A DNA stretch of 64,000 bases from Pseudomonadales bacterium (lineage in GTDB: Bacteria; Pseudomonadota; Gammaproteobacteria; Pseudomonadales; Azotimanducaceae). Position numbers and translations under genes: made by a program. The first letter of the stretch is position 1. The number at the start of each line of letters is the position of its first letter. The stretch spans positions 1,240,001 to 1,304,000 of the forward strand of contig WLWP01000001.1 in NCBI GenBank assembly GCA_012103505.1, written 5' to 3'. Positions 1,341 to 30,595 of this stretch are shown piece after piece. The notes beneath the pieces are model-generated. The model saw only the letters and a list, made by a program, of their open reading frames with translations, searched no databases and was not told the DNA's origin.

Positions 1341-2336
1341 TTAGACGGTAATGTGTAAGCCGCCTTGCGATTCAGTGGACAAATTTGGCTGTGTTTCTGG
1401 GTCTGTTAAAGGATCTGATGCGAGATGCTCACTGTCGCTATCTCGCCCTTCTCGTTCTTCCGAAGAAGGCTCCTTTTGCTCACTTCGTACATCTAACTCA
1501 GACAGGTCAATGCCCATCTCCGCAAGGCTCGCACGAAGCCGAGGTGCCATCGCTTCCAGAAGTTCTTTGGTCCCTGGGTCTCGAGCAACGATCTGAACTT
1601 GGATGTCCGCTCCTTCTTGGCGGAAATCAAGATCTAGACGCCCCAGCTCTCTCGGGTGTAGTTGTAAGGAAACGTGGCCAGGTTGCCTCGCCCGCATAGC
1701 GATAAAGCGCTGGATCTGTGACTGCACGGCATCAGCAGCCTCAGGGCTTTGACGCTGTACCGCTGCTTGTATCGTACCACTCGCGCTGATCTCTTCGCTT
1801 TCACGAGGTGCGCTCGCCGTAGGCGTTGCGTTGATGTTTGACAAAGCTTGCGTCTGGCTTGGTCCAATGCTGTTTCGCGTTGTTGAATCACCGGTGTCTA
1901 GTCCGCGCGTTTCTGCATTCGCACTACCCTGCAGCATCTCGCGAATATTGGCAGCGGATAGAGTTAGGTCGCTTGATCGGTTTACGGCGGCCGACCGTTT
2001 AAAGTCGTTTCGCTCATCTACTAGCTCGAATCTCGCTGCTTGGGCGTTGTTTTGTTGTCCAGCTTGTTGTCGTAAGTCAGAAGAAGGAATTCCAGCAGAC
2101 AATCTCCGGCTCGCGGATGGAACAGCTGGTGCCCTGACTGGTGCGTTAGCTGATTGTGCCGTTGATGTCGTTGCAGCGTGCTCGATCCGTTGATTGGGCG
2201 TCTGCGGGTCAGCTGGTAACGGTCGGTTCAACATTTCTACAGGCCTACCCATTCGCTTTTCATCGCTGACAACTGGTGCGTCTTTATTCTGCGCTACCCT
2301 CGACACGGGGGGGGGTGGCTGATCTCTGTGCAGCAT
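1341..2336 (-). CDS. fliK: FliK C-terminal part (hook-length control), frameshifted from its N-terminus
   Basis: FliK is the secreted molecular ruler that measures hook length and switches FlhB substrate specificity. This frame holds the C-terminal two thirds, including the Flg_hook domain: RARQPGHVSLQLHPRELGRL, then LDFRQEGADIQVQIVARD. These are the most conserved residues of the family and are intact. The tail is the usual acidic, Ser-rich stretch. The start of this frame is not a real start: it overlaps the upstream N-terminal frame by 53 bases, and the overlap contains a run of nine C (2307-2315 on the minus strand). Removing one C would join the two parts as ...RSATPPVSRVAQNKD.... See the separate entry for the N-terminal half. 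Confidence 0.88.
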   Translation of the reverse strand: MLHRDQPPPPVSRVAQNKDAPVVSDEKRMGRPVEMLNRPLPADPQTPNQRIEHAATTSTAQSANAPVRAPAVPSASRRLSAGIPSSDLRQQAGQQNNAQAARFELVDERNDFKRSAAVNRSSDLTLSAANIREMLQGSANAETRGLDTGDSTTRNSIGPSQTQALSNINATPTASAPRESEEISASGTIQAAVQRQSPEAADAVQSQIQRFIAMRARQPGHVSLQLHPRELGRLDLDFRQEGADIQVQIVARDPGTKELLEAMAPRLRASLAEMGIDLSELDVRSEQKEPSSEEREGRDSDSEHLASDPLTDPETQPNLSTESQGGLHITV

Positions 2337-3033
2337 CTTGCCTTAGGCTCGATGTTTCCGCCTCGAGTTGCTTATTGATTGGTTGTCGCACTAAAGCCGC
2401 AGAACTTTGCTTTAACGGCAGCGTGTGAGGAACAGATTCAGACGATTGAGTTCTTGTCTTTTTAAGGTTTTCTGCACTTACCATTGCTGCAAGCTTGTTA
2501 GGGACTTGAGCAGCGTCACTGTCCAGAACCTGTATTTGAGATATCGACACTGCGGACGACTTTGCTTCTTCTGTCAGTTGCCGTGTTTGTGGAACGAGTT
2601 GTTCTTTTTCCAGAAACCGAGATTCTTGAGTCGGCATTGCGATTGCGTTGGACGATTCAACGCTGATCTTTTGGATTGGGGTAGATCCCCTAAGGGCAAC
2701 ATCCATTGGTGGTACTACTGGCGTCGCCGCCATCGACTGTGTTGCGGGGCTTAGCTTGTTTAACGGCATGATCTGGCCGTCGGGTGGCAAAACTGCGCCG
2801 CCCTCCTCCATTGGTGTTTCGGCCAACATCTCAGCGAAGGGAATTTCGAGTGGTTGCTGCACCGGCAGCGGTGCAACGGTCTGCTCTTGAACCGCGTCAA
2901 GCATGACGTGCTGAAAGTTCAACGGCACAGTCGGAAAATTGACGTTGCCGTCAATTTTCGTCTGAAAACTCAGGTCAGTTGGGCCAAGCTTCGCAATACT
3001 TCGCGTTTCCAAGCCTGCATCCAGACTTGGCAA
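2284..3033 (-). CDS. fliK: FliK N-terminal part, ends by frameshift at the C9 tract
   Basis: This frame encodes the low-complexity, Pro/Gln/Ser-rich N-terminal half of FliK (PLPVQQPLEIPFAEMLAE and similar), which is poorly conserved in the family and has no catalytic residues. It ends in a short out-of-frame tail (RVEGSAE) just after the C9 tract. The start is uncertain. A TTG at 3033 opens the frame, but a CTG at 3054, eight bases after a GAGGAG Shine-Dalgarno-like sequence, would add seven residues (LNLSFLN). Joined to the C-terminal frame, the product would be about 560 residues, within the broad FliK size range. Confidence 0.75.
   Translation of the reverse strand: MPSLDAGLETRSIAKLGPTDLSFQTKIDGNVNFPTVPLNFQHVMLDAVQEQTVAPLPVQQPLEIPFAEMLAETPMEEGGAVLPPDGQIMPLNKLSPATQSMAATPVVPPMDVALRGSTPIQKISVESSNAIAMPTQESRFLEKEQLVPQTRQLTEEAKSSAVSISQIQVLDSDAAQVPNKLAAMVSAENLKKTRTQSSESVPHTLPLKQSSAALVRQPINKQLEAETSSLRQDAAQRSATPPRVEGSAE
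2307..2315 (-). repeat. C9 homopolymer at the fliK frameshift
   Basis: Nine consecutive C on the coding strand of fliK. With nine C the upstream frame runs to a stop at 2284. With eight C it continues in frame into the Flg_hook domain. Such a tract is a candidate for slipped-strand phase variation, transcriptional slippage or a sequencing error; the sequence alone does not decide between these. Confidence 0.8.
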
Positions 3034-3118
3034 ATTTAAAAATGAAAGGTTCAGGTGCTCACTCCTCGCTTCAAGACGCCCTCGGGCGCACTACTACCTA
3101 GACATACAGTTAGGAGTT

Positions 3119-3134
3119 AGCAAGAAGTAGGCCA
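3119..3134 (-). promoter_or_regulatory. Candidate sigma-54 promoter upstream of fliK
   Basis: On the minus strand the sequence TGGCCT, five bases, TTGCT fits the sigma-54 GG-N10-GC core, with a perfect -12 element and four of six -24 bases. It lies about 65-85 bases before the possible fliK starts, in the gap after hptB. A GCGCCC/GGGCGT hairpin (about 3079-3094) lies between it and fliK. It is weaker than the flgB promoter and should be treated as a candidate only. Confidence 0.4.
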
Positions 3135-3158
3135 ACCACCCCCGAAAAGTGGCATCAA

Positions 3159-3503
3159 TCAGAGATGGTGCTTAACCGCTTCACTGACCTCAACGAGTTG
3201 AGTGTTGACGGTTTGTAGAAGTTCGGGAATGTCTTCCGGCTGGCTTAGCCGAGCATTGTCTTCAAGTGAGGCGCACGTTCGCTGTAGTTGTTCCGCGCCA
3301 ATATTGCCGCAGCTACCCTTGAGACTGTGCGCGGCTCGTCTAAGTTCATCGAAGTCTTCACCTATCCACGCGCTTTTGGCTACAAGGTATTGTCGTTCCG
3401 ATTCTTCGAGAAAGGTCTCTAGCAGGACGGGAAACTCCTCCTCCATGATTTCTCTAAGTTCTTCTAGCATCTCGGCGTTTAAAACATCATTCACTATTGT
3501 CAC
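3159..3503 (-). CDS. hptB: HPt phosphotransfer protein, HptB-like
   Basis: Histidine-containing phosphotransfer domain protein of about 114 residues. The helical bundle carries the motif AAHSLKGSCGNIGA, whose His is the phosphoacceptor. In Pseudomonas aeruginosa HptB passes phosphate from hybrid sensor kinases to the receiver of HsbR. Here the gene directly follows the HsbR-like gene and overlaps its end: the GTG at 3503 (VTIVNDVLN...) overlaps by 17 bases, and a second GTG at 3494 overlaps by 8, so the two are probably translationally coupled. Which GTG is used cannot be told from sequence. Confidence 0.85.
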   Translation of the reverse strand: MTIVNDVLNAEMLEELREIMEEEFPVLLETFLEESERQYLVAKSAWIGEDFDELRRAAHSLKGSCGNIGAEQLQRTCASLEDNARLSQPEDIPELLQTVNTQLVEVSEAVKHHL

Positions 3504-5187
3504 TCCATTGCATGGTGACCAGAACTTCATTACCTGGCTCAACGAATTCAATTGCTTGGCAGAGATCGTTTAGCAAGCGCACGCCTCTACCGTGATATTG
3601 GTTTTTACTGACCGTTTCTGCCTTTGCGACTTTTTTAAAGTCGAACCCCTTGCCACTGTCGATCACACGGATGAGCAAGTCGACGATGCCGTCCTTACAA
3701 CACCCGGCAATCTCAAAACGGACAAAACCCTCGACACTTTCTAAGGCACTAGCACGCGCCTGGTAGTACTCAGCAAAGCCTTCTACCGATTTTTTTAGAT
3801 TCGAATCTAGGCCCAGGACACCGTGCTCCAAGCCATTAGAATAGAGCTCGGCTAGCACCGTATAGATCTCTGTTGCTTTTTTTCTTAAATACGGCGCCTG
3901 CATCAAGATCTGTTGCAACATCGGCAATGGGTTGAAGGCTCTGAGTGAATCTGGACCGAGTTCGTAGGTCAACTTCCAATCCCTTGGACCAGAATCGCTT
4001 TCTGGTGAGCTAGGTTGACTTAACTCATCGACCTCGTCAGGCGTCACCAATTTGATCTCAACCATGGTGATGTCATCATCACGACCATTCATGTACTCGT
4101 AAACCGCACCTTGGATCGCGTCGAACAACTGTTCAGGGGGCGATTCTTGAACGATTTTTTCCAAACGCTCTGAACCAAAGTACTCTTGTGAACTATTGCG
4201 AGCTTCAATGACCCCATCAGTTGCAAAAAACAATCTGTCGTCTGGAAAGCCCTCAATGACAAGTGTTTCGTCTTTGAATTTATCTGGACCCAAAATACCG
4301 AGCGGCAGATTCATGGATTGTAACGGTACAACCTGATCGTTTGCTGATCGTCGTAAGTAAGCTGTAGGGACGCCGCCATTCCAATACTCGACGGTGCATC
4401 GATTGAAGTCGATATTGACTGCAACGGCACAGCAAAAATATCCCGAAGGGAGAACCGAACCTAACTTCTGATTACACTCCTTCAGAATTTCCGGTAAAGA
4501 AAAACCTTTGGCTGTCATCCCATAGAACGCGTCTGCCAATGGCATAGCCCCAATCGCGGCAGCCAAGCCATGGCCCGTAAAGTCGCCAAGTAACAAACAC
4601 AACTGTTTCGCTGGGGTTATTGAGGCAAGTAGAACGTCACCGTTAAAGACCGACATCGGAGAAAGCATGTGGCGGATATAGTCGCACTCAAGCTGGCGCG
4701 AGTGTGCGACATTGTCAAAAACCGCTTTAGCAGCTTGTTGGTCTGCGACCAACTGCATGTGGTGCTTCGAAATCTCATCACGCTGGGATTGCACAGTCTG
4801 ATGCATCTCACGCATCCTGCTCAGTGCATGTAATTTTGCTTTCAGAATAATCTGGTTATAGGGTTTGGTCAGAAAGTCATCGCCACCCGCCTCTAAACAT
4901 CGAGCGAGCTCCGATGCATCGGTAAGACTGGTGAGGAAAATTATAGGTGTAAACTCGTCACCGCAGGCTTCCTTTATCTCCTCCGCGACCTGAAAACCAT
5001 CTTTCCCCGGCATCAAAGCATCCAACAGGACAAGATCGGGTTTGTCTGCATGGTACTTAACAAGTGCGTCGTTACCATCGACCGCATCGGTCACTTTATA
5101 ACCGGCTTTGCGTACGATCGTTGTAAGAATTTTTCGATCGACAGCGTTATCGTCTGCAACGAGTACGCGTATTGAAGACTCCATCAC
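3487..5187 (-). CDS. hsbR: HsbR-like response regulator with PP2C phosphatase and ATPase/kinase domains
   Basis: A 566-residue three-domain regulator. Residues about 6-125 are a receiver with the acidic pair DD at 12-13 and phosphoacceptor Asp56 in LLDALMPG, with the distal Lys in LTKPY. Residues about 160-385 are a SpoIIE/RsbU-type PP2C phosphatase (FNGD, GDFTGHG, FATDGVIEARN, DDDITMVEIKL). Residues about 415-560 are a HATPase_c anti-sigma kinase-like domain (ELYSNGLEHG, DSGKGFDF). This is the domain order of Pseudomonas HsbR, which dephosphorylates or phosphorylates the STAS protein HsbA according to its receiver state. The start is GTG 5187 or ATG 5184. It sits between the STAS gene and the HPt gene, inside the fli operon. 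Confidence 0.88.
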   Translation of the reverse strand: MMESSIRVLVADDNAVDRKILTTIVRKAGYKVTDAVDGNDALVKYHADKPDLVLLDALMPGKDGFQVAEEIKEACGDEFTPIIFLTSLTDASELARCLEAGGDDFLTKPYNQIILKAKLHALSRMREMHQTVQSQRDEISKHHMQLVADQQAAKAVFDNVAHSRQLECDYIRHMLSPMSVFNGDVLLASITPAKQLCLLLGDFTGHGLAAAIGAMPLADAFYGMTAKGFSLPEILKECNQKLGSVLPSGYFCCAVAVNIDFNRCTVEYWNGGVPTAYLRRSANDQVVPLQSMNLPLGILGPDKFKDETLVIEGFPDDRLFFATDGVIEARNSSQEYFGSERLEKIVQESPPEQLFDAIQGAVYEYMNGRDDDITMVEIKLVTPDEVDELSQPSSPESDSGPRDWKLTYELGPDSLRAFNPLPMLQQILMQAPYLRKKATEIYTVLAELYSNGLEHGVLGLDSNLKKSVEGFAEYYQARASALESVEGFVRFEIAGCCKDGIVDLLIRVIDSGKGFDFKKVAKAETVSKNQYHGRGVRLLNDLCQAIEFVEPGNEVLVTMQWSDNSE

Positions 5188-5227
5188 TTGTTACTCAGGC
5201 AGAACCTTGAAGAGACACTAACGCTAG

Positions 5228-5533
5228 TTAGTGAATCGAGAAAAGTTGGTCGAAGTTAGAAATGGTTAGAATTTTTTTGACATCTGAGCTGCAGTTTACA
5301 ATCTCAACATCAGCTTGATCCCCGCCCGCGTGGTCACGAAGTAACAGCAACATCCCGAGCGCAGAACTATCGATATAGTTCGCACCGCCCATGTCGATGG
5401 AAAATTTTTCTGGTTTGGCTTCAAGTGCTTCGTAAGAATCGCGAAAGTCCTTGTGGGCACTAAAATCGAAACGCCCGTCAACGGCAATCGTTAACTTATT
5501 TGACGCTTGATCTAGATTCGAATCTATGGACAT
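5228..5533 (-). CDS. hsbA: STAS-domain anti-sigma factor antagonist, HsbA-like
   Basis: A single STAS domain of 101 residues with the motif NYIDSSALGMLLLLRDHAG; the phosphorylatable serine is at position 56 or 57. In Pseudomonas HsbA binds either FlgM (freeing FliA) or the diguanylate cyclase HsbD, depending on Ser phosphorylation. The gene lies just upstream of hsbR and hptB, after fliJ. A flgM gene is present about 28 kb away in this window, so the partner needed for the same control is available. The role here is inferred from homology and context. Confidence 0.85.
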   Translation of the reverse strand: MSIDSNLDQASNKLTIAVDGRFDFSAHKDFRDSYEALEAKPEKFSIDMGGANYIDSSALGMLLLLRDHAGGDQADVEIVNCSSDVKKILTISNFDQLFSIH

Positions 5534-5564
5534 GACTTAATCTCCAGCTAACCGTTTACATCAG

Positions 5565-5978
5565 TTAAAGCTTAGACGGCGCGCGGTAGATTTGCGCCTT
5601 TTCCGCCTTTTTTCGCAATGCGTACTCGTGATCTCTATCACGTTTTTCGAGCAGACCGCGCAGCAGCTTGAGTTTGCGATGTCGCATGCCTAGTTTTTGA
5701 ATCTCGCTCTCCAGTAAGCGTTCTTTCTCGTTAAGGCGCTCGCCTTGTACTTGATAAGTACGGTAGAGCTCTGAGAAGAAGCGACGTCTGATATGTAAGG
5801 ACTGCGTTGTTGAAGACGGTGCATTCAGATCGCTTTCAACATATTCAGTAACTAGCCCTTCTATGCCCTTTAGGCCAGCTGCCAATTCATCAGCCTGCGC
5901 TTGTCTGAAAGCCACCCTTCTCGCTTGGTTTGACCGTGCGATCTCAGCTAGCCGTTCCACTTTCCTTAGCTTAGTCAT
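5565..5978 (-). CDS. fliJ: Flagellar export chaperone FliJ
   Basis: A 137-residue, highly charged, almost entirely helical protein with long heptad-like Arg/Glu/Leu patterns (KLRKVERLAEIARSNQARR at the start and RKLKLLRGLLEKRDRDH near the end), as expected of the coiled-coil stalk of the flagellar type III export ATPase. FliJ inserts into the FliI ring and connects it to FlhA. It follows fliI after three bases, in the standard fliHIJ order. Length is close to the usual 147. Confidence 0.88.
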   Translation of the reverse strand: MTKLRKVERLAEIARSNQARRVAFRQAQADELAAGLKGIEGLVTEYVESDLNAPSSTTQSLHIRRRFFSELYRTYQVQGERLNEKERLLESEIQKLGMRHRKLKLLRGLLEKRDRDHEYALRKKAEKAQIYRAPSKL

Positions 5979-5981
5979 GCA

Positions 5982-7412
5982 CTATTGACGCACTGGTTGG
6001 ACAGTCTGATGGTTAATGTTGATCCCGGGATTGATTCCTTCAACGCTTAGCTCACCCTGGGAGGGTTCTGCCACTTTAAATACTTGTTCGAGGTCATAGC
6101 GACTTTCACCGGACGGTATCGGCGCGTGTTCGCTTTGCTGTAAAAACTCACACATAGCGGGGTACAGCCGTATCGCCTCATCAGTTAGCGCGTCACTTCC
6201 TTGTTGGTATGCTCCGATCGCAATCAAGTCCCGTTGCTCTTGATAACACTGCCAAAGTTGCCGAAAGCGAACGGCGTCGACCCTCTGTTCTTCGCTGATA
6301 AGTTTGGTCATCAATCTCGATATGGAACCACCGACGTCAATGGCTGGATAGATGCCTTGTTCAGCCAACTCTCTGGCAAGAACAACGTGTCCATCTAAGA
6401 TAGCTCGGGCCGCGTCGACAACAGGATCCTGAAAGTCATCTTCTTCCATCAGAACTGTATAAAACGCCGTGATGGATCCGGCGTTTGCGCTCGCACCGGT
6501 GCCAGCACGCTCGACCAGCTTGGGTAACGCAGCAAATGAAGATGGGGTATAGCCTCGTGTACTAGGTGGTTCCCCCATCGCTAATCCTATCTCTCGTTGC
6601 GCTTGGGCGACCCTAGTAAGGCTGTCCATCAGCAACAGCACATTGCGACCCTCTTCGCGAAAAGACTCGGCTATCGTCGTTGCTAGTCTTGCGCCGCGTA
6701 AACGCAGCGCCGCTGAGTCGTCCGCAGGGCAGGCAACGACAACCGAGCGCGCTAAGCCTTCGCCGAGGTTTTCTCGTATAAATTCTTGAACTTCTCTACC
6801 CCGCTCACCGATTAACCCAACGACTACGACGTCAGCTTGGACAAATCGAGCCAACATACCAAGCAACACACTTTTACCAACCCCAGAACCTGCGAACAGA
6901 CCTACCCGTTGACCTCGACCGACAGTCAACAAGGCATTGATGGCTCTTACGCCAAGGTCAATTTCTTGATCAATGGGGTGGCGCATCAATGGGTTGATTG
7001 GCTTGTTTGCAATGACGGGATGAACGGCAGAGAAATCACCGAGCCCATCGATTGGATGACACATGCCATCTACAACTCGTCCTAACATTGCATCAGTTTC
7101 AGGCAACTCACTAACATCTGAAGTTCGAGTTGGTACCCGAATTAGCGTTCCCGGGCGTATACCCTGCGCCCCGACTAAAGGCATCAAAAAACAGCGATCA
7201 CCGTCAAACCCGACTACCTCCAACGGCACTGGCCGATCAGCGACCAGCCAACAAATGCTACCCAGTCCGACTCTGATCCCCTGGGCTTCTACTAATAGGC
7301 CAACGCTTCGCACAACTTGCGCATAGGGTTGGCTTTGGAAAAGGTTTGGTTCTTTGTCTACGACATGGTCATAGAGTTCACGGAGACTAATCACTTGGTA
7401 CGACTGACTCAT
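5982..7412 (-). CDS. fliI: Flagellum-specific export ATPase FliI
   Basis: The ATPase of the flagellar type III export apparatus. The Walker A motif GLFAGSGVGKSVLL is intact, as are the Walker B stretch NVLLLMDSLTRVAQAQREIG and the family signature GEPPSTRGYTPSSFA. The ATG at 7412 (MSQSYQVISL) is the likely start; it lies inside the end of fliH with a 26-base overlap. The protein has 476 residues, slightly longer than usual because of a C-terminal extension after YDLEQVFKV. It acts with FliH (inhibitor and tether) and FliJ, both adjacent. Confidence 0.95.
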   Translation of the reverse strand: MSQSYQVISLRELYDHVVDKEPNLFQSQPYAQVVRSVGLLVEAQGIRVGLGSICWLVADRPVPLEVVGFDGDRCFLMPLVGAQGIRPGTLIRVPTRTSDVSELPETDAMLGRVVDGMCHPIDGLGDFSAVHPVIANKPINPLMRHPIDQEIDLGVRAINALLTVGRGQRVGLFAGSGVGKSVLLGMLARFVQADVVVVGLIGERGREVQEFIRENLGEGLARSVVVACPADDSAALRLRGARLATTIAESFREEGRNVLLLMDSLTRVAQAQREIGLAMGEPPSTRGYTPSSFAALPKLVERAGTGASANAGSITAFYTVLMEEDDFQDPVVDAARAILDGHVVLARELAEQGIYPAIDVGGSISRLMTKLISEEQRVDAVRFRQLWQCYQEQRDLIAIGAYQQGSDALTDEAIRLYPAMCEFLQQSEHAPIPSGESRYDLEQVFKVAEPSQGELSVEGINPGININHQTVQPVRQ

Positions 7413-8067: not shown

Positions 8068-8070
8068 CCG

Positions 8071-9084
8071 TTAAACCATCTCATCGCCACCAGAACCACC
8101 CAACATAATCTCACCTTCATCGGCGAGCCGTCGGGCTATCAACAATATCTCTTTCTGAGCGCCTTCGACCTCTGAGAGGCGGACAGGTCCTTTGGCATCC
8201 ATGTCATCCTTCAAGAGATCTGCAGCGCGACTAGACATGTTGCCAAACACTTTGTTTTGCAGAGCTGGATCTGCGCCTTTGAGCGCCATCGTCAGGCTAT
8301 CCGTGGAAATCTCTTTCAACAGAGTTTGTATGCCTCTGTCGTCGACCATTAACAAATTGTCGAATACAAACATGAGTTCGTTGATGGCATCCCCGAGACC
8401 TTGATCGATCTCTTTGATCGCCTCCATCACCGGCTCATTAGCCTCTTTCGACATATTGTTCATAATTTCAGCTGCTGAGCGTTTTCCACCAAGTTGTGCA
8501 AAACGCACCGGTCCCGCACTCGATGCGGTTTGGTGCTCGATAACATCTGCAAGTTCTGAAATAGCAGCAGGGGATATCGCATCCAGGTTCGCCACTCTCA
8601 TCACTATATCCCGGCGTAAGCTCGTATCGTCGATATAATCTAATACTCGGGCTGCTTGATCAGCTTCAAGAAAAGACATGACGATCGCCTGAACTTGTGG
8701 GTGTTCCGACATGATGAATTCGGCAACTGCTCTAGGGTCCATCCAGCGCAGACGATCCAATCCTGCTGTGCTACCACCGTTGATTTTTTCGATCACGGAA
8801 TTTGCCTTGGATTCGCCCAAGGCATTTGTCAGTGTGTTCTTAATGTATTTGCCAGCGCCCATAGTCAGTCCGGATTCATCTGAGACCGTTTCTAAGAATC
8901 CATCAACGATCATCTCGATCTGATCCGTACTAACGGACGCAAGTCCAGACATCGCCTCGCTTAAACGTTGTACTTCCCGTTGATCCAGGTGCTTGAGCAC
9001 GTTGGCAGCTTCACTTTCGCCAATTGTGAGCAAGAGAATGGCGGCCTGATCAACCGTTGGTAGTTCTAGCGCTGCTTCACTCAT
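8071..9084 (-). CDS. fliG: Flagellar motor switch protein FliG
   Basis: Rotor protein that transmits torque from the stator. The 337-residue product has the three FliG domains: the N-terminal FliF-binding part (DQAAILLLTIGESEAANVLKHL), the middle domain with SEHPQVQAIVMSFL (the EHPQ motif), and the C-terminal torque helix (MFVFDNLLMVDDRGIQTLLKEI) with the charged residues that face the stator. It ends GEIMLGGSGGDEMV as usual. The ATG overlaps the corrected fliF stop (ATGAGTGA), which supports the fliF frameshift described there. Confidence 0.95.
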   Translation of the reverse strand: MSEAALELPTVDQAAILLLTIGESEAANVLKHLDQREVQRLSEAMSGLASVSTDQIEMIVDGFLETVSDESGLTMGAGKYIKNTLTNALGESKANSVIEKINGGSTAGLDRLRWMDPRAVAEFIMSEHPQVQAIVMSFLEADQAARVLDYIDDTSLRRDIVMRVANLDAISPAAISELADVIEHQTASSAGPVRFAQLGGKRSAAEIMNNMSKEANEPVMEAIKEIDQGLGDAINELMFVFDNLLMVDDRGIQTLLKEISTDSLTMALKGADPALQNKVFGNMSSRAADLLKDDMDAKGPVRLSEVEGAQKEILLIARRLADEGEIMLGGSGGDEMV

Positions 9085-10718
9085 CTTCAGTCACCCAGTG
9101 TTTGACAACTTGAGCCACCCGCTCAGGGTCTTCATTGATTAAATTTCTAACAGTTTCCATTTTTGCTGCGCTTGAATCGTTGGGATCAAGCGATATCGGA
9201 GATGGCAAGCCCGGTACAGCCTCCTGTAAGGCCGCCTCCCGTAATTGAGTCAGCTATTGCCAAGCTCTGTTGCTCCCGAACCAACTCGCCTGCTTGGCTA
9301 AGGTTCTTAAACAACGGGCGGAGTAGGCCGAGGATGACTACGATGAATGCAAGGCCGCCAAGAACTTGCTTTATGATTCCGGAGAACCAGTTCTGCTCAT
9401 AAAATGGTGTCGGTGCCACCTCGGCGGTGGGCGCACGATAAAATTCTCTGTTAACTACGCTGACTGTATCGCCGCGCTCTTCGCGAAAACCTGCTGCGGA
9501 TTTCACAGCCTCGGTTAGCGCGGCTAACTCTTCTTCTGACCAAGCTTCGTTAGTTACAACGCCAGTTTCTGCGTCTGTTACTGGACGATAGTCAACGACC
9601 ACTGCGATGCTCAATCTCTGTATACGCCCGACTTGTTGCCGCGTGTGTCTAATCGTCCGGTCTACTTCGAAATTTCGAGTGCTGCTGACACGAGTTGATT
9701 TGGTCTCTTCTACTTCGTTCTCCGTAGGCGCATCGGCAAGTTCTGGTGGCTGGTTCGAGAGGGTACCTGGTATGCCACCAATCTGACCCCCTATGCCCAA
9801 TTCCTGTTCCTCAGTCTGCTGCTCACTTCGGACCACAGAGAGCTCTGGGTTGTATTGTTCTTGCGTGCTTTCGGCACGGGTGAAGTCAACTTCGGCACTG
9901 ATTTCGGCTGAGAATCGATCCCTGCCCGCCCACTTCGACAAAATGTTGGCCACTTTGTCATACAAGTTACCCTCAATCTTGTGAACAAGGTCCAAGTCCT
10001 GCTGTGAACGCAACAGAGAGTCATCCACGGCCCCATTGCTAAGTAGCGTTCCTGATTGGTCCACGACAACGACATCTGACGGATCTAAATCCGGGACGCC
10101 ACCTGCGACCAAATTCATGATGCCTCGAATTTTGTCCTGATTAAGGTCTCGTCCAGGTTTGAGAGTGAGCGTCACAGACGCGCTAGGTTTACGACGATCT
10201 CGGAGGAACGTCGTTGTCTTTGGCGTCGCCAAAATGACGCGAGCGTGGTAGACGGCATTTATTGCCATAATATTCTTGGCAAGCTCTCCTTCAACCGCAC
10301 GACGATGGTCGTTGTATTCACGGAACTGGCTAACCCCAAAACCTTGTTCGCGGTCGAGGATCTCGTAGCCCATTTGTTCGCCGACAACACCATCTTCAGC
10401 TAGCGCCATCCGAGCATCAAAGATCCTCTCTGCAGGTACTAAAATGGTCCCGGTACGCTGGTCGACTTGTGTAGGTATCTGGTGGGCTTCGAGTGCATTA
10501 ACTATCTCGCTTGCTTCACCGGGTGTTTTTGGAGAACCAATAGGCCGGTAATCTGGAGTTTGAACCCACATTGCGACGACGATTGCCATTGCTACACTCG
10601 CAGCCAAAGCAACTAGCAGGGTCACCTGGCGCACTACCGGCATTCCGGTGGCACCTTTGATGAAGTTGCTGCCTGGGAACAGAGGGCCGTTTGGTTCTTT
10701 TAGTTGTGCTTCTGCCAT
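9077..10718 (-). pseudogene. fliF: MS-ring protein FliF, 3' end frameshifted
   Basis: FliF builds the MS ring of the basal body. The frame from 10718 encodes the N-terminal membrane segment, the YscJ-like ring-building motifs and the second membrane segment (GGLAFIVVILGLLRPLF), then runs out of frame near 9251-9257 and stops at 9186 after 510 residues with an unrelated tail. The correct tail lies in the next frame: LTQLREAALQEAVPG, then VRNLINEDPERVAQVVKHWV ending at a TGA at 9077 that overlaps the fliG start. That tail is the FliG-binding peptide of FliF. One extra base in the region separates the frames, and a TAG sits just upstream in the second frame. As written, FliF could not bind FliG. 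Confidence 0.85.
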
Positions 10719-10732
10719 CTTTGCTTCCTAAA

Positions 10733-11104
10733 TTAGATCGGCATATTCATGATGTCTTGATAAGCGCTAACCATGCGGTTACGTACCTGCACCATCGCCT
10801 GAAATCCAAGGCTTGCTTTCTGTCCATCAACCATCACATTAACCAAGTCAGAGCGCCTCCCCGCAATAAAATCATTGGCGCTGGAACTGGCGGTCTGTTG
10901 CATGCTGTTGACGTTGTCTATTGCACCTTTAAGGGTCTCGCCAAAATCGACCTTCGTTGCACCTGGAGATCCGATTACCTGCGTAGAAGCGACATCCTGG
11001 CTGGGTTGTGTCTGGACGGCCCCAGCCTGAGCTTGTGTTCGGAGTGCCCGCATCTGTGCAAGCACCATCTGTATGTCTGGCTGACCAACGCCCTTAACAT
11101 CCAT
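10733..11104 (-). CDS. fliE: Flagellar hook-basal body protein FliE
   Basis: FliE joins the MS ring to the rod and is an early export substrate. The 123-residue protein ends with the family signature (NDFIAGRRSDLVNVMVDGQK and VQVRNRMVSAYQDIMNMPI). It starts at ATG 11104, overlapping the stop of the fleR-like gene by one base (TAATG), and precedes fliF by 14 bases. Its N-terminus is a little longer than in E. coli but typical of gammaproteobacteria. Confidence 0.93.
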   Translation of the reverse strand: MDVKGVGQPDIQMVLAQMRALRTQAQAGAVQTQPSQDVASTQVIGSPGATKVDFGETLKGAIDNVNSMQQTASSSANDFIAGRRSDLVNVMVDGQKASLGFQAMVQVRNRMVSAYQDIMNMPI

Positions 11105-12105
11105 TAGACACGACCCTCAAGTAGAAGACCTTTGTCGCGCATCTGCTTTATCTTGTGACGAAGTGTTCGCTCAGATATCCCAAGCTCAATTGCTGTGTGC
11201 TTTCGAACGCCTTTGTTTCTGCTCAAAGCATCAAGCAACAGCGCATCTTCATTGGATTTGAGCTTGGCGTGCAAACCGTTTGTGGCTGCATCTGGTTCAT
11301 TGAGAATGATCTGACGGATGTCGAGAAGATCCTCCGATATCAACGTGCCCTCACACAAAACTAACGCACGCTGCATGCAATTTTCTAGCTCCCGAACATT
11401 ACCCGGCCAGCTATATGACAGTAGACGCGCTCGAGCACCTTCGCTGAGCTCCATGTTCGGTTGTCCAAATTTCGACAAGCAACTCTCAGCTAGAGGCAAA
11501 ATGTCCTCTACTCGTTCACTGAGCGATGGAAGCTCAAGTGGGAAGACTGACAAGCGATAATAAAGGTCTTCACGCAAATGCCCGTCCCGCACGGCTTCGA
11601 CGAGATCTCTATTCGTGGTTGCCAAAATTCTCACGTCCACGCTTAGCGCTTTGGCACTACCGAGCCGCTCAATTTCACGCTCCTGTAATACCCGGAGCAG
11701 CTTGGCTTGCAGCCCAATTGGCATTTCCGTTATCTCATCCAACAGCAGCGTTCCGCCGTCGGCCATTTCGAATTTTCCGACGCGCTTTTCTGTCGCGCCA
11801 GTAAATGCACCTTTCTCGTGCCCAAAGAGAGTTGCCTCAAGCATGGTTTCTGGTATCGCCGCGCAGTTCATAGCGACAAACGGACCTGTGCTTCGCCGCG
11901 ACTGTTCATGTAGGTACCGCGCAACCACTTCTTTGCCGGTCCCACTCTCGCCCGATATAAACACTGAAATATCTGCTTTTGCGACCTTGTCTGCGTAACC
12001 AAGCACTTTTGCCATCGCTGCACTTTGTGCAATCGGCTTACGAGGATTAGCGCCTAGTGCAGGAGTGACTGAAAACTGGTGAGATTCGTTAGCAATCATG
12101 TTCAC
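11104..12105 (-). CDS. fleR: Sigma-54-dependent activator, FleR/FlrC-like without receiver domain
   Basis: An AAA+ sigma-54 activator of 333 residues. It has Walker [11 protein letters not shown], the GAFTGA sigma-54 contact loop, a Walker B region [13 protein letters not shown], and a C-terminal Fis-type helix-turn-helix ([20 protein letters not shown]). The AAA+ part ([20 protein letters not shown]) is closest to FleR/FlrC, the activator of class III flagellar genes. FleR proteins normally carry an N-terminal receiver phosphorylated by FleS. Here only about 35 residues precede the AAA+ domain, and no fleS is present. The start is GTG 12105 or ATG 12099, overlapping or touching the fleQ stop, so the two are probably coupled. 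Confidence 0.85.
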
Positions 12106-13211
12106 TGCACCGTGTCCAGAGTCCGACCTAAGCCATGCTTACGCATCTTCTCCACAAGAGTTGTCCTTCTGATGTGTAGGCGGTCCGCCGCTCTCGCAAC
12201 CACTGCATTCGTGTCCTGTAGCGCTTGCTCGATGAGACTTTTTTCAAGGCGTGTTAAGTAATCTTTTAAGTCGATACCATTAACAGGCAGAAGCACGTCT
12301 TCGCTGGAGCTGCTAGCCTGTTGGACCTGAGCACCTTCAACTTCGACATATTTTTTTGGCAGGTCCACAGACCTCACGAGGCTGTTCGGGTATTGAATCG
12401 CCAGTCGATTTAACAAGTTCGACAACTCCCGAACATTTCCAGGCCATGGGTATTGTTTTAGAAGTTCTAGGGCATCGACAGAAAAACGAACATGGAGACC
12501 CTGTTCGTTTTGTATACGGTTCATCAGTACGTTTACTAAGAGAGGTAAGTCTTCTCCGCGGGCTCGCAGCGGACTAAGCTCAATCGGATAGACGTTTAGA
12601 CGGTAATAGAGATCTTCACGAAACTCGCCGTCATAGATTTTCTGTTCAAGATTCTGGTTGGTCGCAGCGATAATTCTGACGTCACTGACCTGGGACTTAA
12701 TACCACCAACCCTTTCAAAGCTCTTTTCCTCCAATGCACGCAGAAGTTTTACCTGCATCATGAAGGGCAAATCACCGATCTCATCGAGAAACAATGTACC
12801 GCTGTGAGCAAGTTCAAAGCGTCCTATTTTCTGGGTGATCGCACCAGTGAAGGCCCCTTTCTCGTGACCAAACAACTCGCTCTCTAAGAGTTCACCAGGT
12901 ATTGCTCCGCAATTTATCGGCACAAAAGGTCCACTTACACGTTGAGAGCCTTGGTGTAGCGCTCGAGCTACGACTTCTTTGCCAGTCCCAGACTCACCTG
13001 TTATCAGCACTGTGACATCGCTGCCAGCCGCACTGGATATAGACTGTCTGACTAATTCTGCATTTTCACTGGCCCCTACATACGCTTGTGCAGCAGGTAG
13101 GCAAGCCATTGCCTCTGAACCCGCCAATGTCATAGCTTCAAGTAGGTTCGACAAACTACAAGGGGAGACAACAACGCCGTTCTCTTGGCGCACTGCATCG
13201 ACCGTGGACAT
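12102..13211 (-). CDS. fleQ: Flagellar master regulator FleQ (AAA+ and HTH part)
   Basis: Sigma-54-dependent activator of the top of the flagellar hierarchy, also c-di-GMP responsive in Pseudomonas. This frame holds Walker [37 protein letters not shown], the GAFTGA loop, [20 protein letters not shown], and a C-terminal Fis-type HTH ([20 protein letters not shown]) that is nearly identical to FleQ/FlrA. The usual N-terminal receiver-like domain (about 120 residues) is mostly missing from this frame, but a matching fragment lies just upstream at 13229-13432 in another frame. In-frame sequence without a stop ([11 protein letters not shown]) extends upstream of the ATG at 13211, consistent with a frameshift inside one gene. 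Confidence 0.88.
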
Positions 13212-13228
13212 GTTTGCATCAATGTAGA

Positions 13229-13432
13229 CTAGGCATCGAATGAACCAGCATTCGTCCCGTCTCCGAGGATCACCCTCGCCTGGGCAGGGTCACTACAAAC
13301 TGAAAGATCTGCAAACTCGAGAAGTTTTCTAACTTCACGTGACTTGTCGGGATCTGCAAAATCGAGTGCAATGTGAAATTTACGCTCGCTACCATTCTCC
13401 GCGTGATTCGCGGTATCTGGAAGGTCATCCAT
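13229..13432 (-). pseudogene. fleQ: FleQ N-terminal receiver-like fragment, probable frameshift
   Basis: A 67-residue frame with KFHIALDFADPDKSREVRKL, then [20 protein letters not shown], which resembles the start of the degenerate FleQ receiver domain (a first beta strand, then an iLeFLge-type helix). A GAAGGAAAA Shine-Dalgarno-like sequence precedes the ATG at 13432. It ends at a TAG at 13229, where a one-base frameshift would lead into the open frame that continues to fleQ. Two readings are possible: a disrupted fleQ start, or a separate small gene coupled to a short FleQ. I favour the first. Confidence 0.6.
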
Positions 13433-13836: not shown

Positions 13837-13840
13837 TGTC

Positions 13841-19435: not shown

Positions 19436-19503
19436 TTCAAGCTACTCCATTTGCGTTGTTAGATATCCCCTCCGAATCCAATACAGGGGGTTCTCAAATA
19501 GGG

Positions 19504-19530: not shown

Positions 19531-19663
19531 GTGACTGAGTTCACAGTCTGGGTCAGGCGGGTAAATATCTGCAAAAATCGAGTCTAGAAGTCGCCAAATC
19601 CGCCTAAGGCGCACGCCTGTGAACGGCCTGCGCGTCTCTTACATTTTAGCCGGTAATCTAGGA

Positions 19664-20887: not shown

Positions 20888-20947
20888 CGAATCTATATCC
20901 TTGAGTTAGCTCAATTCAGAGCAGTTTCACCAGACGCCTAACAACAT

Positions 20948-24450: not shown

Positions 24451-25546
24451 TAGATCACTACCAGTTCCGCTCGCAGAGCACCTGCCTGTCGCAATGCCTC
24501 TAGAATGGCCATCAGGTCACCTGGCGCAGCGCCCACCTCGTTCACCGCAGTGACAATGTCTTGTAAGTTCACACCAGGAGCAAAATAAAACATTCGGCTG
24601 TCTTCTTCGGTAATCTCCACTTCAGATCCAGCGACCACAACGGTTTCGCCCGCAGCAAATGCATTAGGTTGGACAGCTTCTGCGTCCTCGCTGATGGTTA
24701 CCGTCTAGCTGCCGTGTGTCACAGCTGCTGGCGCAACCTCTACTCTCTCCCCGATAACGATCGTACCCGTTCGCGAATTGATCACGACTTTGGCCGAGTT
24801 GGAATCTGGTTCTACGTCAAGATTCTCTAGAACCGACAGAAACGATACGCGTTGCGTTGCATCTTTCGGCGACCGTACTGATATAGAACCTGCATCTAGA
24901 GTTGTTGCCACCGCCGGGCCAAAAGTCGAATTGATCTTTTCAGCAAGACGTCGTGCCGTTGTGAAATCTGCTTGGTGGAGATTAAAGACAATGTTCTCAG
25001 CGTGACTAAATCCATCGGGTGCAGGCCGTTCTATATTGCCCCCCGACGCTATCCGGCCAACGCTCGGTACGTTGACCGTCACGGAAGAGCCATCAATACC
25101 CTCTGCGCCAAAACCACCAACAACCAAGCTACCTTGAGCTACTGCATAGACGAGGCCATCCAGGGCTTTGAGTGGTGTTACAAGTAAAGTTCCACCACGG
25201 AGAGACTTGGCGTTGCCTACCGAAGAAACGGTCACATCCAGACGCTGACCAGGTTTTGCAAACGCTGGGAGATCGGCATGCACGGCTACTGCTGCTACGT
25301 TTTTGAGTTGAAACGTCGCATTAGCAGGCATTTGTATCCCCAGCTGCTGCAACATATTCCTAAACGTCTGAACCGTAAAAGGTGTTTGGCTAGTTTGATC
25401 TCCAGTACCATCCAAGCCAACGACCAAGCCATATCCCACCAATTGGTTACTACGGACGCCACTGACGTTAGTCAGGTCCTTAATGCGTTGCGCTTGCACC
25501 TGAGAAGCACGAGCACCATCAATACAACAGACAGAAAATACTTCAT
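24450..25546 (-). pseudogene. flgI: P-ring protein FlgI, disrupted by a frameshift and an in-frame amber codon
   Basis: FlgI forms the periplasmic P ring around the rod. The ATG at 25546, nine bases after the flgH stop with GGAG before it, begins a signal peptide ([14 protein letters not shown]). The mature part ([20 protein letters not shown], then [18 protein letters not shown]) is in a different frame, so one base appears to be missing near 25500-25520. The mature frame then stops at a TAG (24705-24707) after VTHGS, where relatives have SLTVTISED; TVTISED follows directly and the frame continues to LVVI at 24450. A TTG-to-TAG change explains this. The C-terminal 85 residues are lost unless the amber codon is read through. 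Confidence 0.85.
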
Positions 25547-25554
25547 CGGTACTC

Positions 25555-26229
25555 CTAGAATGGGTTAATCGAGCCAAGGAAGAACTTAGTCATCCAACCG
25601 GCCCGGTTTGAGTTAGCAATCGCTCCGGTGCCGCTATATGCGACTCTCGCATCTGCTAGACGCAAGCTAGAGACAGAGTTGTCGGCGCCAATGCCCTCAG
25701 TCCTCACCAACCCAGAAACACGGACATATTCTTCGCCAGTGTTGAGCTGGAACCATTTTTCGCCTTGAACCAACAACAGACCATTTGGTAGTACATCAGC
25801 AACAACGGCGCTTATCGTGCCAGTTAGCGAGTTGCTTTGATCGCTATCTCCTTGGCCGCTAAATTCGGTCGAGCTTGAAATGGAATTCAAATCTGCATCC
25901 GTACTTCCACGAACTATGTTGCCTAATAGCGTCGGGTTTAGAATTTGATTAGTTGTATCTTTGGCAATAGAGGTTTCTGCACTCTTAGAAGAACGCATGC
26001 GTTCTTCAAGAGAGATGGTGACTACATCACCGATTTCCCGAGCTCGACGGTCGTCGAACAATGCCAAATTGTGACTCGTGTGAAAGAGTGAACCTGCGCT
26101 CAAGCTAGTAGGCTTTGGCATCGTCGGCAGAACCGGACGATAAACTGGTTCAGCGCGTGCCGGTTCCTTCGGTATATGCATACACCCGCCGAATAACAGG
26201 AGAGCAAACAAAGCTAGTGATATTCTCAT
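25555..26229 (-). CDS. flgH: Flagellar L-ring lipoprotein FlgH
   Basis: FlgH forms the outer-membrane L ring. The ATG at 26229 gives a lipoprotein signal, [16 protein letters not shown], with the lipobox cysteine at residue 16. The body shows the family features [20 protein letters not shown], then [10 protein letters not shown], and the C-terminal [14 protein letters not shown]. The 224-residue length is normal. It lies 10 bases after flgG and precedes the damaged flgI. Confidence 0.93.
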
Positions 26230-26239
26230 TTCAATTGAC

Positions 26240-27019
26240 CTATAGATTCTGAGCGAGATACTGGAGCATCTGATCCGCGGTAGAGACGACCCTCGCATTC
26301 ATTTCATAAGCACGTTGCGTCGCCACCATGTTCACCATCTCTTCGACGACGGAGACGTTAGAAGACTCGAGTACCCCTTGCACGACCTCTCCTGTACCGT
26401 TTAAACCAGGTGTGGATTGCAATGGCGCGCCACTGGCAACGGTTTCGCGGTAAAGATTACTTCCCACCGCCTCAAGCCCTGTTGGATTGACAAAATCAGC
26501 CAGTTGAAGGTTGCCAATTTGTGTCTGTGTGCCGTTAGAGGTTGCAGAGACGGTGCCATCACGAGCAATCGTTAAACCGGAGCTTCCTTGAGGAATGTTG
26601 ATCGCGGGTTCCAGCGCATAACCTTGTGAAGTAACAAGATCACCATCCTGATTTACTGAGAACGAACCTGTTCGACTGTATGCAACGGAACCATCGGGCA
26701 TGGAAATTTGGAAAAATCCGTTCCCCTCAATAGCCAGATCCAAAGCACGCTCGGTGGTTTGCAGGGAACCAATGGAAAATTGTTTCTGCGTAGCGGCAAC
26801 TCGAACCCCTGTACCGAGCTGTACACCCGAGGGCAGCGTTGAATCCTGGGAAGATTGCGCCCCGGGTTGCTGATTGATCTGATAGACAAGATCTTCAAAG
26901 ACAGCACGATCCTTCTTAAATCCCACCGTACCAACGTTCGCAAGATTGTTGGAGATCGTACGCAGCGCCGTATCTTGTGCGGCTAATCCTGTTTTACTGA
27001 CCCAAAGCGTTGAATTCAT
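26240..27019 (-). CDS. flgG: Flagellar distal rod protein FlgG
   Basis: FlgG is the distal rod subunit. The ATG at 27019 is preceded by AGGAGTT at good spacing, so it is favoured over an in-frame TTG six bases upstream. The N-terminus NSTLWVSKTGLAAQDTALRT and C-terminus MVNMVATQRAYEMNARVVST are the conserved rod-protein helices. About 259 residues, the standard length. It follows flgF by about 30 bases. Confidence 0.95.
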   Translation of the reverse strand: MNSTLWVSKTGLAAQDTALRTISNNLANVGTVGFKKDRAVFEDLVYQINQQPGAQSSQDSTLPSGVQLGTGVRVAATQKQFSIGSLQTTERALDLAIEGNGFFQISMPDGSVAYSRTGSFSVNQDGDLVTSQGYALEPAINIPQGSSGLTIARDGTVSATSNGTQTQIGNLQLADFVNPTGLEAVGSNLYRETVASGAPLQSTPGLNGTGEVVQGVLESSNVSVVEEMVNMVATQRAYEMNARVVSTADQMLQYLAQNL

Positions 27020-27048
27020 TGTCAACTCCTATGTCGTGTTCTGTCTTT

Positions 27049-27789
27049 TTATCCAATTCTCAATAGTTGAGTGACAGCTTCGTCGTTGCCCTCCGCTACC
27101 TTCATCATCTTTACTTCCAGCTCGAACTGTCGCGCAAGGGATATAATCTCCGTCAGTTCATGAACTGCGTTCACGTTGCTTGATTCGATAAAGCCGGAGT
27201 TCACAGAGACTCCAGCGGCGTTCGGAAAAGGTTCTTGTAAGTTGTTCCGTATCAACCCTGCTTCGTCTTTAAACACTTCTGCAGCGGACGGATTAACCAA
27301 TTTAAGTTGGTCTATTTGAACGAGCGCTTCAGAGCCTTGCCCTTGAGGACGAATGGTTATCGCTCCATCAGAGCCGAACTGAATCGATTCAAAGGGAGGC
27401 AATACAACTGGTCCACCAGTGCCCAGCATTTGGAATCCGTTAGAATTTGACAAACGCCCTGCGCTATCAACCTGCAACGATCCGTTCCGCGTGTAACCCT
27501 CTGTGCCGTCAGGTGCGAGTACAGAAAAAAGACCGTCGCCGTTGATGGCGATATCCAGAGGCGAACTTGTTTCAACTTGGGTGCCTGAGCTGAGGTCAAC
27601 ACCAGCTCCCTCATTCACTGCGTAAACCCGAGTTCTATAACCATCCCCGGAAACCTCTTGCGAACTCACACGGGCTAAATCAGCGCGAAATCCGTTGGTC
27701 GAAGCGTTCGCTAGGTTGTTGGCTCTAGCCGTCTGGGCCTGCTCGATATTCGAGAGACCCACGGAGCTAACGTAAAGTAGACGATCCAT
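27049..27789 (-). CDS. flgF: Flagellar proximal rod protein FlgF
   Basis: FlgF is a proximal rod subunit of 246 residues. It begins MDRLLYVSSVGLSNIEQAQT and shows the NNLANASTNGFRADLAR rod signature and the C-terminal helix HELTEIISLARQFELEVKMM. The start codon overlaps the flgE stop (TAATG), so translation is coupled to the flgE reading frame. Its level could therefore depend on ribosomes reaching the downstream flgE fragment. Confidence 0.93.
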   Translation of the reverse strand: MDRLLYVSSVGLSNIEQAQTARANNLANASTNGFRADLARVSSQEVSGDGYRTRVYAVNEGAGVDLSSGTQVETSSPLDIAINGDGLFSVLAPDGTEGYTRNGSLQVDSAGRLSNSNGFQMLGTGGPVVLPPFESIQFGSDGAITIRPQGQGSEALVQIDQLKLVNPSAAEVFKDEAGLIRNNLQEPFPNAAGVSVNSGFIESSNVNAVHELTEIISLARQFELEVKMMKVAEGNDEAVTQLLRIG

Positions 27790-28727
27790 TAGATGTTGAT
27801 GATCGTTTGCGTGATTTCGTCAGCGGTAGAGATAGTCCTCGAATTCGCCTGGAAATTTCGCTGCGCGATGATTAACTGCACTAGTTGCTCGGACAGCTCG
27901 ACGTTCGAATCTTCCAAAGCACCAGACGTGATGCTACCAAGCGACCCAGAACCCGGTGCTGCGACCACCGGTGGACCTGACTGACTTGTCTCTATCCAAG
28001 AGGTGTCACCAACCGCGCTCAACCCTTGAGTATTCGTAAAGTCGGCAACCGCTATCTGGCCAAGCGTTGAATTCTGTCCGTTCGTGAACCGCGCGACGAC
28101 AACACCCTCGTCGTCAATAGCGAGACCCGACAGCTTGCCAGTGGTATAGCCGTTTTGTTCTATCGCACCCAGTGCGAAGTCTCTGCCAAACTGGGTAGAG
28201 TCAGACAAGCGTAACTCAAAGTTTGAGCTTTCCGGGGGTTGCGGTATCGGTAATCCACCGCCACCAAGAACGTTTGTTGGTCCGACGGCACCATTCGGCG
28301 CGCCCTGAGAATCAAGCGGTGTCCAGTTACTAATTAGTATGGGATCGGTACCCGATAGATTTAGTGTACCGTCAGAATTGAATTGGACGCCAAAGTTAGC
28401 GCGCGTTGGTTCCAGGTTCTGAGGCGGTGGCAAGTTTGGATCAGGGTCACCAACATCTTCACCGTCGATCAAGGTGTAAACCGACCAACGATTCTCTTCT
28501 TCTCCTGCAACACCAGGCGTGAATCGTTCCTTCACGAAATATAGAGATAGTGCGTGCGGATTACCTAGGCTATCGAAGATAGTCATGGATGTAGCCGCAT
28601 TGTAGGTTTCTTGATTCGATGGATCGAAGGTGTTGAGCGCAAATTGGGTATAAGCGTTTTGGTCTAACACCCCAAATATGTTGGAGACTGCCGGAATCGC
28701 GTTCTCCATCGTTAAGCCTTCACTCAA
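27789..28727 (-). CDS. flgE: FlgE C-terminal part (hook protein), frameshifted
   Basis: This frame encodes the C-terminal third of the hook protein: TFDPSNQETYNAATSMTIFD, then SLGNPHALSLYFVKE, a central D2-like segment, and the C-terminal helix LSEQLVQLIIAQRNFQANSR with DEITQTIINI. There is no good independent start; the frame opens at TTG 28727, overlapping the stop of the N-terminal frame. Compared with relatives, the sequence should be continuous with that frame, so one base is probably missing near 28727. If translated alone, the fragment would lack the N-terminal D0 helix and could not assemble. Confidence 0.85.
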   Translation of the reverse strand: MSEGLTMENAIPAVSNIFGVLDQNAYTQFALNTFDPSNQETYNAATSMTIFDSLGNPHALSLYFVKERFTPGVAGEEENRWSVYTLIDGEDVGDPDPNLPPPQNLEPTRANFGVQFNSDGTLNLSGTDPILISNWTPLDSQGAPNGAVGPTNVLGGGGLPIPQPPESSNFELRLSDSTQFGRDFALGAIEQNGYTTGKLSGLAIDDEGVVVARFTNGQNSTLGQIAVADFTNTQGLSAVGDTSWIETSQSGPPVVAAPGSGSLGSITSGALEDSNVELSEQLVQLIIAQRNFQANSRTISTADEITQTIINI

Positions 28728-30595
28728 TGTCCGCCGACTGACACCACTGACGAACCAGAGGTATCAAGCGTAACCGCCAAACTCTGGCTGCCACGTACGT
28801 CCACTGTATCTGCAGGGTCACCAGTCGCTGAAAACACAAGGTCGTTACCGACCTGATCAACGATTACTAAGTTCCCATCTATGTCGATTTCAGCACTCAC
28901 TGTGCCGAGGCCAGGCAGGCCAAGGTTAATGCTATCAGCCAGTTCTTGTAGTGACGAACCAGCTACAGGTACGTTGTTTATTGCCAACGCAAGCGTTCCG
29001 CTCGTGTTGTTGTAAGTTGCATCGTTAATGACCGCTGTGGTCTCTGCGCTCGCGTTAACTTCAGGTATCGTTGCTGAAGCAAACTGTGTGGCGATCTCAG
29101 CTGCTGTTGAGCCTTCAGCGATGCTCACGTTAATACTTGATCCATCCGGATACACGACATCCACAGTCTGGGCTGAATAGCCATTAGAGGCGGCAGAAAC
29201 ACCTGGGACAGAAATCCCTGTCGAGAGATTCAAGACATTGGATAAGTCAGCCTGAGTCACGCCATTGTTACTTGCATCCAAATTGCCGATAGAAATCGTA
29301 GAGCTCTCACCTGCAACGCTCGCCACAAACTGGATTCGGGTATTGTCTGCTGGATCCAATGCAACTGTAACGCTTAAGCCCGAAGCAATAAGTTGATCTT
29401 CGATATCGCTGATCAACTCAGCCGAGTTGGTGATATTTGTATTCAGATTTACAGTGGCTGTACCGTTGTTACCACTCGATCCGGCAAGTGTGATATCGAA
29501 GGAAGCAGACGAGGCGCTACCTTGTACGCCAGCGGTGGCAGTACCACCGTAGGGATCTGGGTTAGTGTTCGAGGCACCTGCCCCACCCGCTTGACCCAAA
29601 GCCACGTCACCAAGGACCGCTTCAATATCGCCCTGCGTGACACCTGCACCTAATACAGAATTGTCGTTGGGGTCTATCGTGATTACGCTGTTCTCACCGG
29701 CGTTAACCGCAAAGAATTGTAAGCGACCAAGATTCGCTGGATCTTCCCGTACATCAATGCCAATCCCGGATCCTGAAAGGTCATCTCTGATGTCGTTGAT
29801 CAGATCCTGCAGCGTGGTGATGTTCGAGGTCAGATTAACGGTCACTGTCGTGTTTTCGGTTGGCACGCTCGAGCCCGCTAACTCGATTTCAAAGGAAGAA
29901 TTAGCCGCTCCGGAAAAATCAAAAGGCGCAAGCACTTGATTCGCGCTGATACTGGAAACTGTGTTCACACTAAAATCAAAAGGCGTTGGTGCTGCACTAG
30001 TTTCTAGTTCGGTCGACGTTGGATTGGGTAGACCAAGTTGCGCCAAACCAATCGAAGATCCGTTGGTCGACAACGAATTGCCAATTTCCGAAAGGACCTG
30101 AGCGCGCGCATCCAGATTCACGTTCGCTTCGACTAGTGAGGTCTGCAGAGGTGGTAGGTTAACCGTGTTTATCTGCAAGTCGCCGAGAATGCCGCTAAGT
30201 GTGCCTGCGTTATTCGCAGTGAAACCCTGTACTCGTGAGCCGCTGCTATTCGTTATAAAGCCCTCGTTATCAACAGCGAACGCGCCTGCTCTCGTGTAAG
30301 TACGAGCACCGCCATCACTCAAGACGAAAAAACCATTACCATCAATGGCAAGGTCTAAGCTCGAATTCGTAAACGAGATGGTGCCTTGATCAAATCGTTG
30401 GGCAACGTTGGCAAGCTTCACACCAGCCCCAATCTGATTAGACCCCGTACCGAGCAAACTGGAGGCATAGATGTCTGCGAACTCCGCCCTACTCGCTTTG
30501 AACCCCGTGGTACTGGCGTTGGCTATGTTGTTACCCGTAATTCTTAGATCACTGGAAGCCGCGCTCATACCACTTAGTGCTGTGTTAAATGACAT
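28724..30595 (-). CDS. flgE: FlgE N-terminal part (hook protein), ends by frameshift
   Basis: Residues 1-140 are the conserved N-terminal hook region (SFNTALSGMSAASSDLRITG, then NNIANASTTGFKASRAEFAD). From about 220 to 475 there are two tandem related units, each with a FEIELAG or FDITLAG strand, a TVTVNLTSNITTLQDLINDI-type helix and GVTQGDIEAVL or GVTQADLSNVL. A further INNVPVAGSSLQELADSINL unit follows. The frame stops at a TGA (28724) after 623 residues, just before the frame with the C-terminal third. Joined, FlgE would have about 935 residues, twice the usual 400-480. Confidence 0.87.
   Translation of the reverse strand: MSFNTALSGMSAASSDLRITGNNIANASTTGFKASRAEFADIYASSLLGTGSNQIGAGVKLANVAQRFDQGTISFTNSSLDLAIDGNGFFVLSDGGARTYTRAGAFAVDNEGFITNSSGSRVQGFTANNAGTLSGILGDLQINTVNLPPLQTSLVEANVNLDARAQVLSEIGNSLSTNGSSIGLAQLGLPNPTSTELETSAAPTPFDFSVNTVSSISANQVLAPFDFSGAANSSFEIELAGSSVPTENTTVTVNLTSNITTLQDLINDIRDDLSGSGIGIDVREDPANLGRLQFFAVNAGENSVITIDPNDNSVLGAGVTQGDIEAVLGDVALGQAGGAGASNTNPDPYGGTATAGVQGSASSASFDITLAGSSGNNGTATVNLNTNITNSAELISDIEDQLIASGLSVTVALDPADNTRIQFVASVAGESSTISIGNLDASNNGVTQADLSNVLNLSTGISVPGVSAASNGYSAQTVDVVYPDGSSINVSIAEGSTAAEIATQFASATIPEVNASAETTAVINDATYNNTSGTLALAINNVPVAGSSLQELADSINLGLPGLGTVSAEIDIDGNLVIVDQVGNDLVFSATGDPADTVDVRGSQSLAVTLDTSGSSVVSVGGH

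Follow-up and report, generated by a model that had tools for sequence, protein, structure and literature searches.

Shigella and other non-motile bacteria carry flagellar pseudogenes in which several independent small lesions are found within a gene set that is still recognisable. The locus described here shows the same pattern. It differs from Shigella in that the remainder of the 844 kb examined has few lesions, and in its setting, a Pseudomonadales relative with a large genome. In Brucella, an unrelated lineage, some genes of the flagellar set are likewise listed as pseudogenes (PMC8781033). A report on Escherichia albertii describes flagellar genes that are fully conserved and not accompanied by dedicated chemotaxis genes (PMC4700944). 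Flagellar genes with no dedicated chemotaxis genes are also encountered here; in contrast to E. albertii, breaks are found in structural genes, and the chemotaxis-like genes form a Chp/Pil-like set. Flagellar decay of this sort is ordinary and familiar in kind. The literature was searched by topic rather than by organism and yielded no title on this organism; this does not show that none has been published.

The window is a 64 kb stretch of DNA (bases 1,240,001–1,304,000 of a 4.65 Mb contig) from a genome of 5.82 Mb in 21 contigs, with a completeness of 99.13% and an estimated contamination of 6.61%. Its minus strand carries one flagellar cluster. The nearest relative among the genomes compared, G008, belongs to the same genus (FlgI, 83% identical) and is collinear with this genome for some 120 kb that span the flagellar cluster, with a nucleotide identity of 64–74%. 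Gene order is the same in both genomes across the cluster and its flanks; however, the fliF, fleQ, flgI and flgE frames are open in G008 and one long ORF lies at the place of fliK. Base composition was noted separately: between syntenic stretches of these two congeners, G+C is 51.6% in 844 kb of this genome (G000) but 60.3% in 782 kb of G008.

From a first-pass annotation, inactivating breaks had been proposed in five genes of the cluster: fliK, fliF, fleQ, flgI and flgE. All five frames are seen directly to be broken in the assembly at those places, and for all but fliK the breaks are also seen with G008 proteins. The main piece of fliF (9186–10718, minus strand, as are all pieces described for the cluster) encodes 510 amino acids that match Pfam PF01514 and PF08345 and run out of frame at the end. 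The last 58 residues are found in another frame at 9080–9253 (tblastn with G008 FliF, 83% identity). The frame breaks near 9249–9253, and the junction is 5 nt shorter than in G008. In fleQ, a break between 13199 and 13241 separates an N-terminal piece (13219–13432), recognised in the sequence and by tblastn with residues 2–54 of G008 FleQ (43%), from the AAA+ and HTH piece (12102–13211; PF00158 and PF02954; 67% to G008). As a side observation, a fleR-like gene at window positions 11104–12105 is without about 85 N-terminal residues found in G008 (416 residues in G008, 333 here).

The flgI gene has two lesions, a frameshift in the signal peptide and a nonsense change. The start of the signal peptide (25508–25546) is out of frame with the mature protein in a three-frame view; this lesion was detected by eye, with the break at about 25508–25530. 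The main piece (24705–25577) matches PF02119 up to profile position 259 of 343 and ends at an in-frame TAG (24705–24707) that falls inside the G008 alignment. Past the TAG, the remainder (24453–24704) is in frame and conserved, the tblastn match to G008 FlgI extending as far as the final residue of that protein. At the position of the TAG, 10 of 11 aligned relatives have a leucine and one has a methionine. Among 33 FlgI matches in 29 of the 40 genus genomes, an internal stop is found only here, as counted in a column that is blind to frameshifts. Lastly, flgE is divided into a first piece of 623 amino acids (28724–30595; PF22692 and PF00460) and a second piece in another frame (27789–28751; PF07559 and PF06429; 80% to G008), with a break near 28730–28751 and a sequence 13 nt shorter than in G008.

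By alignment, the frames of fliF, fleQ, flgI and flgE are open in G008, and conserved residues carry on past each break. FliF, FlgI and FlgE (searched as FlgE_D2) each gave a single match across the whole genome, such that none of the three has a second intact copy. The probable explanation is that the lineage recently lost flagellar motility, with independent small mutations having built up in its only flagellar cluster. A mixed population, in which broken alleles at intermediate frequency were assembled while part of the cells still swim, is an unlikely alternative: nothing direct speaks for it, although the contamination estimate may be cited in its favor, and a second copy of FliF, FlgI or FlgE is absent from every contig.

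The fliK gene provides some contrast to the other four. Its first piece, an ORF of 249 amino acids (2284–3033) with no Pfam match, lies at the place of a 592-residue ORF in G008, and its second piece (1341–2336) contains a Flg_hook domain (PF02120, 70 bits). Only residues 309–575 of the G008 ORF align, at 30% identity; since the first half gives no alignment, the two pieces are assigned to one gene by their position and length. The frame change coincides with a run of nine C (2307–2315), identified in the sequence and by a run scan, which is possibly a run-length miscall, as two non-flagellar genes are split at similar runs. One of these is a short-chain dehydrogenase gene (C6:1821032-1821908) whose frame changes at a run of eight G, its two halves matching adjoining parts of one Pfam family. 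The other (C6:1308086-1310015), 4 kb beyond the window, is split at a G8 run and is presumed to be metallohydrolase-like, no Pfam match having exceeded the cut-off; the open frame is 509 residues long here but 660–699 in the homologues from G008, G010 and G032.

There are four G/C runs of at least 8 in the 844 kb: the C9 of fliK, the G8 of the metallohydrolase-like gene, the run of eight in the dehydrogenase gene, and a G10 that sits in no ORF of at least 100 residues. All three coding runs are out of frame, two of them in non-flagellar genes. By comparison, 205 homopolymers of at least 6 (A/T up to 8, G/C up to 7) occur within intact single-frame genes that have a homologue, flagellar genes included. 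A length miscall at the longest G/C runs of the assembly is likely and the fliK break is probably one; fliK is therefore not to be counted as firm. The same three runs might instead be phase-variable tracts, and that every coding G/C run of at least 8 is out of frame would agree with this. Run-length miscalls produce the same picture, however, and switching fliK would be without consequence when fliF, flgI and flgE are broken, making phase variation highly improbable.

If the fliK break and the state of the three coding runs are taken as a guide, assembly or sequencing error might be extended to all of the lesions. A draft-quality assembly had been named as the main alternative and is indeed the better reading for fliK, but is weak for the other four genes. 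Their breaks are not at runs: no homopolymer of at least 5 was found within 60 nt of the frame breaks of fliF, fleQ, flgE or the 5' end of flgI. In addition, neither a nonsense change nor a shortening by 5 or 13 nt resembles an error in run length, the 205 runs of at least 6 leave their genes intact, and only one of 402 genes outside the flagellar interval is broken. Error as the source of every lesion is thus improbable.

Since conserved residues are present before and after every break, it may also be asked if the breaks are bypassed by programmed frameshifting, stop readthrough or slippage, leaving a working flagellum; the C9 run of fliK could slip. However, no slippery heptamer (XXXYYYZ) is present within 60 nt of any of the five frame breaks. 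TAG is the commonest stop, ending 191 of 462 ORFs with a G008 match, and thus the amber codon is an ordinary stop in this genome; the rare or absent TAG gene ends expected from a reassignment of TAG were not seen. Five separate recodings would be required, the frames in G008 are plainly open, and this explanation is scarcely credible.

The distribution of lesions was assessed by aligning G008 ORFs to nine blocks of this genome, which total 844 kb and include the window. Comparable genes were those with a homologue in G008 that is no less than 40% identical across 80 or more residues; the flagellar interval was defined as beginning about 10.6 kb ahead of the window and ending at 35 kb within it. 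Within the interval, 4 of 42 comparable genes are broken (fliF, fleQ, flgI and flgE) in contrast to 1 of 402 others (Fisher p = 3.3e-4); in an earlier, smaller set, the counts were 4 of 42 and 0 of 298. The fliK gene is below the identity limit and outside of this count, and the metallohydrolase-like and dehydrogenase genes, which were detected through their runs, are not among the 402. The clustering claimed at the outset thus exceeds chance, and the equal lesion rate in other genes that would have spoken against it is not seen in the 844 kb. With 38 of the 42 genes open, the flagellar case depends on five lesions, of which flgI accounts for two. The existence of non-flagellar lesions and the contamination estimate of 6.61% also count against it.

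Stops were listed only where at least 7 of 25 residues were identical on both sides. By this procedure, 15 genes of this genome were marked: the four flagellar genes, a KAS III-like gene, and ten rows that were dropped before the count of 1 in 402 was made. Three of the ten (C6:621636, 1163440 and 3642214) were judged to be antisense ORFs, six (C6: 649090, 1752708, 3489276, 3757517, 1195550 and 4075189) to be sequence 5' of the true start, and one (C6:3520252) to be probably a non-coding stretch. The alignments were viewed for eight of these rows, while 621636 and 3757517 were judged by their stop pattern. In the reverse direction, eight rows were marked on G008; none of the three viewed is a lesion in G008, and one is an rlpA-dacA fusion in this genome. 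The fusion (C6:3465854-3467509) is a 551-residue ORF with a first part that we take to be RlpA-like, followed by what is presumably a DacA-like carboxypeptidase. In G008, each part has a frame of its own, and the fusion in this genome thus seems to have arisen by a deletion. Two other approaches were discarded. A homology-free frame scan with a hexamer HMM was tried on eight sites (six cluster lesions, the metallohydrolase-like gene and the rlpA site, the latter with a misplaced coordinate) and dropped as a control because just fleQ and flgE were marked; sorting of antisense ORFs by codon score was too weak.

It had also been stated that no lesions were seen elsewhere. This holds inside the window as far as it was compared, where 0 of 11 genes are broken between 35 and 64 kb, but not for the genome. 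The KAS III-like gene (C6:3628669-3629791) has a frameshift away from any long homopolymer and is a single open frame in G008; together with it, the short-chain dehydrogenase and metallohydrolase-like genes are split, and all three lie outside the window. In the non-flagellar part of the window, the oadB and oadA genes of a sodium-pumping oxaloacetate decarboxylase (57154–60084) both have open frames. A truncation of oadA was suspected and rejected, as the solved OadA structure 2nx9 aligns over residues 3–452, and pyruvate carboxylases as far as residue 588. An overlap at 57154–57583 was taken to be an over-long TTG start of the DUF5916 gene that adjoins oadB. Compared to the first-pass annotation, then, four genes are better supported, fliK is weaker, and lesions elsewhere in the genome exist.

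The lesions had been attributed to recent relaxed selection on motility, with a comparison of substitution rates between flagellar and other genes as a check. Sites that are invariant in at least five outgroup sequences were considered, and changes private to one genome were counted; 28 genes with at least five outgroup homologues were retained (11 flagellar and 17 others) and the rest were dropped. In the 11 flagellar proteins (784 invariant sites), there are 27 private changes here and 21 in G008, and in the 17 other proteins (3737 invariant sites), 57 and 25, respectively. Faster change of the flagellar proteins on this branch is not seen in a test that has low power for a recent event; the difference between the two sets is not significant (Fisher p = 0.13) and its direction is against relaxed selection. 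Given the small number of lesions, no more than a few additional changes are to be expected, and thus the result fits a recent loss. It is no proof about selection and does not separate neutral decay from selected loss. A recent loss of constraint is still the best reading for fliF, fleQ, flgI and flgE, one that would be too recent to leave a rate signal.

With respect to chemotaxis, this genome has three CheW-domain matches and one MCP match, the same numbers as G008. All those of this genome lie at C6:3762675-3770899, where a CheW-domain open frame is 2035 residues long, and the same arrangement is present in G008. This group is presumably a Chp/Pil-like twitching set. Searches with the CheW and MCP domains identified no dedicated flagellar chemotaxis genes in either genome.

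A flagellum requires FliF for its MS ring, FlgI for its P ring and FlgE for its hook; in pseudomonads, the master activator is FleQ. Judging from the sequence, the flagellum is most probably dead in this organism; its absence of function, the order of events and the cause of loss are what we infer in the following course. Most likely, selection for swimming ceased or turned against it. Small lesions would then have accumulated: frame-changing lesions in fliF, fleQ, flgE and the signal peptide of flgI, and the internal TAG of flgI. The basal body and hook would not be completed in the absence of full-length FliF, FlgI and FlgE, and without an intact FleQ the regulon would be poorly expressed. 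With no structure to build and poor expression of the regulon, further lesions would be neutral. A more specific version can be considered, in which decay is at its first stage in a nearly intact genome, selection acted through fleQ and the hook and basal-body genes to switch off motility in a lineage already without dedicated chemotaxis genes, and the coding G/C runs of at least 8 are real contingency tracts instead of miscalls. As a whole, this version is speculative and doubtful.

For the reading of this assembly, the comparison offers a guide in that breaks outside of runs are more trustworthy than breaks at G/C runs of at least 8. For the biology of this lineage, the cluster cleanly illustrates the onset of flagellar decay, with an intact syntenic congener at hand, and as such may be useful for understanding the timing and the order of loss.
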